From: an uncultured Elusimicrobia bacterium
GTDB lineage: Bacteria > Elusimicrobiota > Elusimicrobia > Elusimicrobiales > Elusimicrobiaceae
Assembly (NCBI GenBank): GCA_945913025.1
Contig: CAMECJ010000009.1
Location: forward strand, 1 to 61,982
DNA length: 61,982 nt
Direction of reading: 5' to 3'
The notes under the pieces were generated by a model. That model was not told the DNA's origin. It was given only the letters and a program-made list of their open reading frames with translations, and did no database searches. Positions 9,573 through 57,172 of the stretch are shown piece after piece (position 1 is the stretch's first letter; the number at the start of each line of letters is the position of its first letter). The position numbers and the translations under genes were made by a program.

Positions 9573-9587
9573 TGCTATAATAAAGTG
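9573..9587 (+). promoter_or_regulatory. Stable-RNA promoter of the initiator tRNA
   Basis: TATAAT at 9576-9581 with a weak -35 (TTGCAT, 9553-9558) at 17 bp. The 15-base string TGCTATAATAAAGTG recurs exactly on the minus strand at 57049-57063 in front of the structured RNA. The -10 box ends only four bases before the mature tRNA 5' end, so the primary transcript would have almost no 5' leader. Confidence 0.7.
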
Positions 9588-9659
9588 CGGGGTAGAGAAG
9601 CCTGGTATCTCGCAAGGCCCATAACCTTGAGATCACTGGTTCAAATCCAGTCCCCGCAA
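9586..9659 (+). tRNA. Initiator tRNA-fMet (CAT)
   Basis: A full cloverleaf can be folded: acceptor 9586-9592/9652-9658, D stem GAGA/TCTC with loop AGCCTGGTA, anticodon stem CAAGG/CCTTG with loop CCCATAA, T stem ACTGG/CCAGT with loop TTCAAAT, discriminator A. Initiator identity rests on the purine-pyrimidine pair A11-U24, the weak U1-A72 pair and the fMet-like D loop. Three oddities: base 33 is C instead of the near-universal U; the anticodon stem has A29-U41 in place of one of the three conserved G-C pairs; and CCA is not encoded. An elongator Met or Ile2 tRNA would normally have G1-C72 and a pyrimidine at 11. Confidence 0.92.
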
Positions 9660-21292: not shown

Positions 21293-21404
21293 TGCTTATT
21301 AGGATAAACAATTTGCTATATTCTTTTTACTTTTTGGCGACTCAAAAAGTAAGAAGAAAGCCTTGATTCGTTTTTTTTTTTTGATAAACTGGAGATAATT
21401 CAAG

Positions 21405-21548: not shown

Positions 21549-22028
21549 ATGAAAGGCTTTACACTTATAGAACTGTTAGTCGTTGTACTAATCATTGGTA
21601 TTTTATCTTCTGTAGCGTTGCCGCAATACCAAAAAGCTGTTAAAAAAACGCGTTTAATGCGTTTGGCTCCGTTAGTAAAGGCTATGGCGGATGCGGAGGA
21701 GGCGTATTATTTGGCCAACGGACAATATACTCCTTTTTCCGGCGAGTTGGACGTTTCGTGGCCGGACGGGAACTTGGCTGGCTCGGCGACAGATGATGGT
21801 TATTTGTAGTTTTCGGACGGAACGGTGGTAGACTTATTGGCTGTATCCAGTTATGTAACGGGCGGCGGAAGTGCTTATGTGAGGGGCACCACAAAGGAAG
21901 GAATTTCTTATATTCATTATTTGGACCATTCTTCCAGGCCCGGCGTACGGTTATGCAAAGGGGATGAAAGTTTATGTAAAAGTTTTGGGGGAGAGCCTTT
22001 TTTGGCCGGCGGTTGGACCATACCTTAA
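21549..22028 (+). pseudogene. Type IV pilin gene interrupted by an in-frame TAG
   Basis: The first 86 codons give a class III signal (MKGFTLIELLVVVLIIGIL), a hydrophobic N-helix and the start of the globular part. Reading stops at TAG 21807-21809. The same frame then continues without a break for 73 more codons with pilin-like sequence (two late Cys, GVRLCKGDESLCKSFGG) to TAA 22026-22028. By comparison with the pilins at 43790 and 56242, the TAG stands where they have Tyr (YC). It may be a nonsense mutation, a tolerated truncation, or a sequencing error. A good ribosome site (AAAGGAG) precedes it. Confidence 0.8.
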
Positions 22029-43124: not shown

Positions 43125-43789
43125 GGGCTGGTGTTAACTAACGTAATTTGTAGAACGGGCGAAAATTATTTTCCGCCCGTTCTTGCTATTTTGGCCGCTG
43201 ATACAGTTACGTTATTCCGGAAGGTTGTAATCCGGAATCTGTTGTTTTGTAATCGTCATCTCGTGATGTTTCTGCACGGGAATCTCCCGCTTATTTGTCT
43301 TTATTATTTGGCAGGACTTGACCTGTCTATAAAATCCGTTTTGCCGTATTTTCCCGCCCTTAGTCCTGTTTATAAAAAGCGTCCGAAACGGAAAAGGCGT
43401 TTTATTTGTTTGAGTGAAGCGAGTTGTAAAACGCTCCGTTTCGGACTGCTTTTTATAGAACGAGGGGGCAGTCTTTTTGTTTCTTTTTACCCTCCGGGCC
43501 AGCTACTGTCAGAAAAAGAAGAAAGAAGATTTTTTGCTTACTTTTTGGCGATACAAAAAGTCGTGCATGACTTTGGGGTATGTCTTAAACAGTGTGGCTT
43601 AGCTAATCAAAAGGGTGCGGACAAGAAGGGAGCCCAGACTCTGGGCCTTGACCCGTTTTTTTTTTTTGATAACATAGGGTTGTCCCGAGGTTTTTCTCCT
43701 CGGGGTATTCCGATTAGATGTTGTTTGTTTAAAAATGGCGAATTTCGGACAGAAACTTCTCTGACTGACTTTAATAGGGGAAACAAAAA
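43125..43789 (+). other. Non-coding repeat-rich region upstream of pilin 2
   Basis: 665 bases. It contains the GAACGGGC hairpin (43152-43182), an ATTCCGG...CCGGAAT hairpin (43213-43237), a long hairpin (43371-43457), the CTTACTTTTTGGCGA...CAAAAAGT hairpin (43537-43561), twelve T (43656-43667), and a CCCGAGG/CCTCGGG hairpin (43684-43705). A 220-codon open frame across it has no protein-like character. Three of these elements occur in the same order at 21261-21382. Confidence 0.7.
43371..43457. repeat. 87-base imperfect inverted repeat
   Basis: Left arm starts TATAAAAAGCGTCCGAAACG, and the right arm is its near-complement ending in TTTTTATA. The arms are about 33 and 31 bases with small indels, and the apical loop contains GAGTGAAGCGAG. 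Strong cruciform or RNA hairpin potential, with no coding content. Confidence 0.65.
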
Positions 43790-56241: not shown

Positions 56242-56760
56242 TTAAGGCAGTTCGTATATGGTGCACCGGCTGCAGTAGGTGTGCGAGACCGCTCCCGTTT
56301 CAACGCCGTTTAAACTGCGGCAAAAAGCACGGGCTTCTTCATCCCCCGTAACGGCCCAGCATTCGCGCCGGCCCGGTTTTTCGGATACGTCCAGCCATTG
56401 TACATAGGCCGCTTTGGTTTTATTGTTAGGGTGATAGAACCCTACTAAATTTTTATTGTGATTATTGTATAAATCGAATGATTTTTTTCTGCAATAAAGG
56501 TAGCCTCCCACCCTCGTGTCCTCCGCCGTGCAGCCGGAGGGCGGTTCCAGGTCCATATCGGTCCAGTAATCGGGGTAGGAGCCGTTGGCCATATAGTATG
56601 TTTCCGCAGCTGTTTTATAAGCGGAGATAATGGTTTGCAGTTCCGAGTAGCGCGCTTTTAATACCGCTCGGTTATATTGCGGCAGAGCGACGGCGGACAA
56701 AATGCCGATAATTAATACGACTACCAATAGTTCAATTAGGGTAAACCCGTTTGTTTTCAT
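56242..56760 (-). CDS. Type IV pilin-like protein (pilin 3)
   Basis: 172 residues. Class III signal MKTNG|FTLIELLVVVLIIGIL with Glu5, then a globular part with six cysteines (GYLYCRKKS, FCRSLNG, YCSRCTIY). The start is ATG 56760 after AGAGGAA; an in-frame ATG at 56790 lacks a ribosome site. The C-terminal half resembles pilin 2. It lies 31 bases after a strong terminator of a structured upstream RNA. Confidence 0.9.
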   Translation of the reverse strand: MKTNGFTLIELLVVVLIIGILSAVALPQYNRAVLKARYSELQTIISAYKTAAETYYMANGSYPDYWTDMDLEPPSGCTAEDTRVGGYLYCRKKSFDLYNNHNKNLVGFYHPNNKTKAAYVQWLDVSEKPGRRECWAVTGDEEARAFCRSLNGVETGAVSHTYCSRCTIYELP

Positions 56761-57172
56761 AATGATTCCTCTTTTTATCGGGCTTAGCATAAAAAACGGC
56801 CGTTATACCAAGCCGCTAAAGGGTAGCTTTTGTATAACAGCCGTGGTTTGCCGCCCTTGCGGGCGACAAACACTCGGCACAAAGCAAACGGGTAATTAGG
56901 CCGCTTGCTTTGTGCCTCCAAACGACTGTTTTTGGCCCTTTAGCGTATGAATTTCATACACACCGCACCCGTGTGCGGTTCCAAAAACAGATGAAATTGT
57001 ATCGTTTCCGCGCTTGGGGCGCGAAAGGAAATCCTCCTGTCGTAAAATCACTTTATTATAGCAAAATCGCGGTTCTTTCTAACCTGATGCGTTGTAATTT
57101 ATTTCCGCCCCGCGCGGGGAAAGTTATTTTTATATAATAAAAGTAATCGTTTTTTATCCAGGGGTATTTTAG
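56761..57172. other. Non-coding region between pilin 3 and clpC
   Basis: 412 bases with no plausible gene. The left two-thirds hold a chain of hairpins (see the ncRNA entry). The right third holds divergent promoters: TATAAT on the minus strand (57055-57060) and TATAAT on the plus strand (57133-57138) for clpC. Confidence 0.7.
56791..57049 (-). ncRNA. Candidate structured RNA / pilin leader
   Basis: On the minus strand a TGCTATAATAAAGTG promoter, identical over 15 bases to that of tRNA-fMet, is followed by about 258 bases with at least five hairpins. In order they are: a GCGCG stem (~57005-57024); CTGTTTTTGG/CCAAAAACAG enclosing two smaller hairpins (56925-56990); twelve pairs GGCACAAAGCAA/TTGCTTTGTGCC (56877-56916); GTTTG-CGCCC/GGGCG-CAAAC (56847-56871); and a terminator, CGGCTGTTATAC/GTATAACGGCCG followed by six T (56791-56843). 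No reading frame spans it. It ends 31 bases before the pilin 3 ATG, so it is either an independent RNA or an attenuator leader. It does not match tmRNA, RNase P, SRP or 6S signatures that I can recognise. Confidence 0.5.

Follow-up and report, generated by a model that had tools for sequence, protein, structure and literature searches.

The T-box, S-box, pyr and trp leaders are attenuators in which a terminator competes with an antiterminator, the c-di-GMP-I and c-di-GMP-II riboswitches (c-di-GMP, cyclic diguanosine monophosphate) are leader RNAs controlling pilin-type genes, and in pT181 and pIP501 attenuation is driven by an antisense RNA, with RNA-RNA loop contacts deciding leader termination. 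The element described here lies on the minus strand of a 61,982-nucleotide stretch of DNA from an uncultured Elusimicrobia bacterium (contig CAMECJ010000009.1, assembly GCA_945913025.1; hereafter the window), upstream of a type IV pilin-like gene. Its most probable role, to which a probability of roughly 0.78 can be given on the strength of sequence comparison, is that of a cis-acting transcription attenuator, a leader RNA of about 215-260 nucleotides (nt) belonging to a new multicopy RNA family. Like the attenuators mentioned above, it would be a 5' leader in which pairing among three strands decides between an anti-antiterminator, an antiterminator and an intrinsic terminator, but neither a conserved aptamer nor a specifier loop or a leader peptide was found in it, and it departs from known attenuators in having dozens of paralogs per genome, a private antiterminator block in each copy and a palindromic loop. 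It shares with the c-di-GMP riboswitches the leader position before pilin-type genes. However, no such model matches the window at E<=10, and the Rfam scans give no support to the idea, raised in the original prediction, of a c-di-GMP riboswitch. The partner in pT181 and pIP501 is an antisense transcript, whereas the loop of the present element is self-complementary.

Closer parallels to this loop, which caps the hairpin called P2, are found among RNAs that dimerize. The dimerization initiation site (DIS) of human immunodeficiency virus type 1 (HIV-1) has a loop geometry of 2+6+1. The common P2 loop nC-TAATTA-C likewise has a central 6-nt palindrome, flanked by 2 nt on its 5' side and 1 nt on its 3' side, although the bacterial RNA differs in having many palindromes per genome, some of 4 nt and many AU-rich, with flanks that are not all purines. 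The HIV-1 kissing loop is described as carrying its palindrome in the apical loop (PMC7357161). The symmetric kissing loop of OLE RNA is supported by palindrome switching between GGCC, GAUC and AGCU (PMC12286853), and these same three palindromes occur in P2 loops. OLE, GOLLD and ROOL are large stand-alone RNAs, whereas this RNA is a short leader with a terminator before a gene.

Alternative folds of the leader

Comparison of the copies brings out, at the level of sequence, a family with a position upstream of genes, common helices, two mutually exclusive predicted folds and palindromes. In the window copy (minus strand throughout), the 5' arm of helix P1 (CTGTTTTTGG, 56981-56990), backed by the covariation of helix 1, would be the anti-antiterminator strand, and the P1 3' arm (CCAAAAACAG, 56926-56935) is common to P1 and the antiterminator. 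Inside P1 the fold places the hairpins P1a and P1b (56943-56978), variable in sequence and, in the case of P1b, optional, and the C1 strand (CGCTAAAGGG, 56936-56945) forms the copy-specific half of the antiterminator. A linker (TCGTTTGGA, 56917-56925), whose TCGT extends antiterminator block A (ACAGTCGT with ACGGCTGT), leads to the P2 hairpin (56876-56916; helix 2 covariation), a stem of 16 base pairs (bp) whose two 16-nt arms are 94% complementary, and then to the P3 hairpin with its GCAA loop (56847-56870; helix 3). The terminator follows, with a 5' arm (CGGCTGTTATAC, 56832-56843) that is the alternative partner of the P1 3' arm and linker, the C2 strand in its loop (CCCTTTAGCG, 56814-56823), which is the exact complement of C1, and a 3' arm (GTATAACGGCCG, 56797-56808) identified by fold and covariation.

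The two folds were compared with ViennaRNA in 173 unique copies, using full-length transcripts and transcripts cut short just ahead of the terminator 3' arm. Once cut, 163 of the 173 fold with antiterminator block A and 10 keep P1, while P1 and the terminator fold together in 159 full-length transcripts, both exclusive folds being displayed by 151 copies. The original prediction had offered an attenuator as one of two options, and this conservation of mutually exclusive antiterminator and terminator folds speaks for it. A terminator before the gene, as in an intrinsic attenuator, is present, and the predicted antiterminator sequesters the terminator 5' arm. Complementarity is largely a private matter of each copy: a Watson-Crick run of at least 8 joins C1 and C2 in 156/173 copies when each strand is matched with its own partner, compared with 0.64% of non-cognate combinations, and 89 distinct C1 sequences occur among 100 copies. 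Compensatory changes in C1 are seen among near relatives (for example L068, L078 and L153, with TAATTGAGGT, CAATTGAGGT and CAATCGAGGT and matching partners). Cognate duplexes hold at least 5 pairs in block A in 172 of the 173 copies, at least 4 in block B in 163 and at least 8 in block C in 168, and the mean energy of the antiterminator duplex is -29.8 kcal/mol for cognate and -20.0 kcal/mol for non-cognate strands (165 copies). Block C runs on through CCAAAAACAG and YCGT into the terminator 5' arm, giving one long antiterminator. In the terminator, the 5' arm CGGCTGT hardly varies and its 3' partner drifts by G-U pairing, as would be expected for a strand with two partners; both-side changes in block A, affecting the terminator 5' arm and the P1 3' end together, occur in L101, L105, L051 and L054.

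In the mechanism proposed, P1 would form first as RNA polymerase makes the leader, and the emerging 5' half of the terminator could then strip off the P1 3' arm. The resulting antiterminator, in which C1, CCAAAAACAG and YCGT would pair over about 20 bp with ACGGCTGTT..TTTGGG..C2, would enclose P2 and P3 and let the polymerase read into the gene. Should P1 hold instead, the complete terminator would form, stopping transcription some 30-60 nt before the gene and releasing a short RNA. Since every copy has a block C (C1/C2) of its own, the dozens of paralog leaders would not easily cross-pair.

Several observations weigh against this scheme. The cut transcript of the window copy keeps P1 by about 1 kcal/mol (-88.1 against -87.0 kcal/mol with the P1 5' arm forced open), so that by minimum energy its terminator 5' arm is not sequestered; this happens because the inner terminator arm does not match CCAAAA, the block A and block C complements being intact. 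Nine further copies also keep P1 when cut, and one copy (L043, before a glycosyltransferase gene) has lost its C complement. With the linker shuffled the antiterminator still forms in 99-103 of 165 copies, meaning that blocks B and C largely account for this fold and block A alone does not. Finally, ViennaRNA ignores kinetics and pseudoknots, and a pseudoknotted P1 with a C1/C2 contact is conceivable. A pseudoknot in which C1/C2 would join the loop of P1 to that of the terminator had been considered as a candidate structure (in the window copy the two loops share a perfect 10-nt complement) and was dropped, since cut transcripts fold as a nested antiterminator. Regarding orthogonality, mean complementarity gave a null result, non-cognate C runs averaging 4.13 within as between genomes; runs of at least 8 were rarer within genomes (0.24% of 824) than between them (0.85% of 2958). 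Antitermination of the RfaH/LoaP type was rejected as well, given that the genome to which the window belongs has one PF02357 (NusG) match and no second.

Conservation of the stems in relatives with compensatory changes, set as a check on the original prediction, is supported by strong covariation. The alignment comprised 101 rows (100 copies and one shadow), with 40 model pairs counted; it was fitted to the model, which biases the covariation counts towards that model. Within it 96.1% of cells pair and 34/40 pairs show changes on both sides, with a covariation score of 0.456 against 0.206 for shuffled and 0.055-0.090 for slid partners. Both-side changes reach 10 of the 11 pairs in helix 1 (P1) and all 15 in helix 2 (P2), where G-U pairs are numerous (for example, 33 U-G at columns 156/201), and the terminator (helix 4) is paired at 96.1%.

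The window locus also carries its own putative promoter. The 15-mer TGCTATAATAAAGTG, matching exactly at 57063-57049 (-) and at 9573-9587 (+) as originally claimed, has no third exact match (5 matches are seen if up to 3 mismatches are allowed, where 1.39 would be expected). The second match lies immediately upstream of a tRNA-Met(CAT) found by ARAGORN at 9586-9659, and the first contains the -10 box TATAAT (57055-57060), preceded by a weak TTAGAA-like -35 (57082-57077, by eye). The leader would be transcribed from this promoter, and the balance of the two folds would set gene expression. P1 is preceded here by a 5' leader stretch (56991-57048) that contains AGGAGG and a small hairpin. This stretch is optional: many copies are devoid of it, with their -10 about 25 nt before P1, and in other copies an exact TATAAT is commonest 71-80 nt upstream of P1. 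An AGGAG resembling a Shine-Dalgarno (SD) sequence occurs 41-60 nt before P1 in some copies (49 occurrences among 161 upstream regions; in the window at 57033-57038), and no conserved open reading frame (ORF) that could encode a leader peptide was seen by eye. The hairpins claimed for the element are present: the predicted fold of 57055-56785 (-) has an energy of -121.5 kcal/mol, where shuffled sequences give -79.9 (z -7.98), and none of 200 shuffles does as well. A terminator with six T (56796-56791) ends 30 nt before the ATG at 56760, again as predicted. The gene downstream is a type IV pilin-like one (MKTNGFTLIELLVVVLIIGIL..., 56242-56760) with an SD-like AGAGGA and a PF07963 match at 56683-56760.

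The RNA family and the genes behind it

The element was described initially as devoid of known RNA signatures, and no Rfam family reaches its gathering score on it. Above threshold, the Rfam scan of the window returned a tmRNA and two tRNAs, none on the element, where matches at E<=10 were at chance level. Rfam 15 run on 18 loci (63.5 kb) found only tRNA, tmRNA and 5S rRNA, again with none on the element; the RNA family is absent from Rfam 15. Novelty with respect to Rfam stood from the proposed new small RNA, while its status as a single element gave way to that of a large family. In the literature on Elusimicrobia pili and noncoding RNA, pilin antitermination and candidate structured RNAs, no description of it was found, judging by titles and abstract openings.

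A blastn search with the element found 7 further similar places in the same genome that became loci. A covariance model (R1) built from seven copies detected 18 copies in that genome at E<=6e-12, weaker rows being mostly opposite-strand shadows. Among 61 genomes (the window's own and its relatives), 33 of the 37 from the window's genus match. A phylum-wide scan found matches in 94 of 340 genomes spanning 8 of 100 genera (62/66 in the window's genus, 18/18 in another genus of the same family, 12 in a second family, f21, and in a third, f2, 2 weak matches with E values of 4e-5 and 1e-4), all of these figures being lower bounds owing to strict filters and the few candidates scored. With full scoring at E<=0.001, 96 copies were counted in one genome (G026; 1.1 Mb, 72% complete) and 61 in another (G112). 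A pattern scan of named genomes yielded 103 stretches, 80 of which were listed as loci; R1 matches 74 of these 80, all titled Elusimicrobiota, Elusimicrobia, Elusimicrobiales, Elusimicrobiaceae, Elusimicrobium or Endomicrobium, and the other 6 (Planctomycetota, Sphingobacterium and others) were set aside as chance pattern matches. A mobile-element or phage origin was rejected, no phage or plasmid match being obtained with blastn, and the sole IMG/VR pattern match is not a family member. Degenerate copies also exist, at C3:199738-199938 in the same genome (L007, L055) and at L167:6884-7049; they have lost most of P1 and part of P2 and retain P3 and the terminator.

A co-oriented ORF of at least 50 codons follows 162 of the 173 copies (of the others, 7 lack sufficient downstream sequence and 4 are without such an ORF), with median start codon positions of about 35-43 nt behind the terminator, and upstream neighbours stand in either orientation. 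A type IV pilin N-terminus is encoded within about 400 nt downstream in 107 of 170 assessable copies, and in the window's genome a pilin lies behind 12 of the 18. A pilin-specific element was rejected on account of the 63 remaining copies, most of which precede envelope genes; the notion of an attenuator of pilin expression thus held for the attenuator and failed for the restriction to pilins. The 49 non-pilin downstream proteins scanned, of 62 listed, included outer-membrane beta-barrel domains (7), glycosyltransferase 2 (6) and glycosyltransferase 8 (3), as well as one or two each of DNA methylase, sulfatase, RgpF, polysaccharide pyruvyltransferase and HsdR-type N terminus. Several further downstream proteins start like lipoproteins by eye. 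The types of gene found indicate a regulon devoted mainly to the cell surface.

The genome containing the window (27 contigs, 1.76 Mb) is very rich in pilin genes, with 111 matches to the prepilin N-methylation family, all above cut-off. Another repeated element found before pilins, TTGACCCG-T(8-13)-GATA, resembles a promoter with a poly-T of varying length between -35-like and -10-like boxes. It occurs at 62 places in the genome, 58 of them at most 700 nt upstream of a pilin (the reversed pattern is found at none), and in the window at 21363-21386 (+) and 43648-43671 (+), before pilins at 21549 and 43787. The 111 pilins include 58 with this element, 12 with the attenuator RNA and none with both. 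From their sequence, the poly-T elements look like slipped-strand phase-variable pilin promoters. Other 5' regions, about 200 nt long, recur among pilins with the poly-T promoter; they are roughly 71-87% alike, have large predicted hairpins and fall into at least two groups (L025, L030, L038, L037, L029; and L022, L033, L026, L017, L024). In G026, some pilin leader peptides (among L101, L109, L110, L113 and L115) are interrupted, without loss of frame, by an LPPGARKT-like stretch before GFTLIELL that resembles an inserted repetitive element.

The palindromic P2 loop and the input to the switch

In the window copy the palindrome TAATTA (56893-56898), a putative kissing or dimer site, occupies the centre of the 9-nt P2 loop CCTAATTAC. 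A palindrome of at least 4 nt is found in this loop in 167 of 173 copies, and one of at least 6 nt in 120; those without include three GACG-tetraloop copies (L128, L184, L236) and three others. Among the 38 distinct loops, 34 have a palindrome of at least 4 nt against 14.5 in shuffles (maximum 22), and 23 one of at least 6 nt against 2.1 (maximum 9), while control loops are at chance (P3 6/173, P1a 7/173, terminator 26/165). The palindromes seen are TAATTA, TTATAA, TCATGA, GATC, AGCT, GGCC, TTCGAA, TTGCAA, CTCGAG, GCGC, TAGCTA, GTAC and TGTACA. They can differ between copies with 86-92% identical backbones, and do differ in 118 of 226 pairs with at least 80% backbone identity. A self-complementary apical loop, as in a symmetric kissing loop, is kept through sequence changes, and can be regarded as the putative signature of a kissing homodimer. 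When backbone identity is equal, the palindrome is common to same-genome pairs less often than to between-genome pairs (at identities of at least 0.85, 7/21 versus 31/38), and same-genome pairs rarely share C1. This suggests selection for distinct codes within a cell, which falls short of proof because the between-genome pairs include orthologs and pairs are not independent. A count of 70 palindrome changes on a tree of 165 rows was left out of the evidence, the tree being poorly resolved.

These loops are also relevant to the strongest competing explanation, a stand-alone small RNA acting in trans, perhaps as a homo-oligomer in the manner of OLE, ROOL or GOLLD, and merely parked before genes. 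The promoter-like element and intrinsic terminator would suit such an RNA, and palindromic loops are the covariation signature used for the symmetric kissing loops of OLE and GOLLD. Nearly every copy, though, is followed closely and at a regular spacing by a gene in its own orientation, and a stand-alone RNA would not need a conserved antiterminator complement to its terminator, which makes this an unlikely account. A metabolite- or tRNA-sensing riboswitch upstream of surface genes, similar to c-di-GMP or T-box leaders, is less likely still: the leader does fold into a domain that lies ahead of a choice between terminator and antiterminator, but no Rfam family matches any tested copy, the loops of P1a, P1b and P3 are variable with no conserved aptamer core, and the conserved unpaired parts consist of short junctions and the P2 loop, which keeps only its self-complementarity. 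That the repeats act purely as DNA, as palindromic operators or attC-like recombination sites of pilin cassettes, is scarcely credible, for in spite of the many dispersed copies and an almost perfect DNA palindrome in P2 and its loop (R1 even matches the opposite strand there), the P2 G-U pairs hold an RNA stem and not a DNA palindrome, P1, the terminator, U-tract and alternative antiterminator are all strand-specific, and the association is with the downstream gene.

For the attenuator, the question becomes what tips the balance between its folds. Control by a ligand or protein had been proposed, yet no ligand- or protein-binding core is evident and the conserved features point to RNA-RNA pairing. 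The lack of a conserved aptamer, together with the palindromic loop, makes an RNA-RNA contact the first candidate input and a P2-binding protein the next. Two leader molecules with the same P2 palindrome could kiss, and such dimerization through P2, or a protein binding there, may provide the input. A more specific and distinctly tentative proposal is that of a gene-specific RNA self-recognition code, in which a terminated leader would homodimerize with a nascent one from its own locus and thereby set the attenuation there; the palindromic P2 loop would define the dimer class and C1/C2 the private helix of each gene. If true, each surface gene would have its own feedback, or expression would be mutually exclusive in a manner resembling antigenic variation, without a dedicated protein.

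If the attenuator reading is right, a leader-RNA family of unusual copy number would control surface genes in a little-studied phylum of the animal gut. Its two hypervariable, self-consistent pairing codes would provide a naturally occurring system in which RNA-RNA recognition is orthogonal, and the RNA would be a rare bacterial leader built to dimerize. It would also open a testable way into the question of how more than 100 pilin-like genes are managed in a genome of 1.76 Mb.
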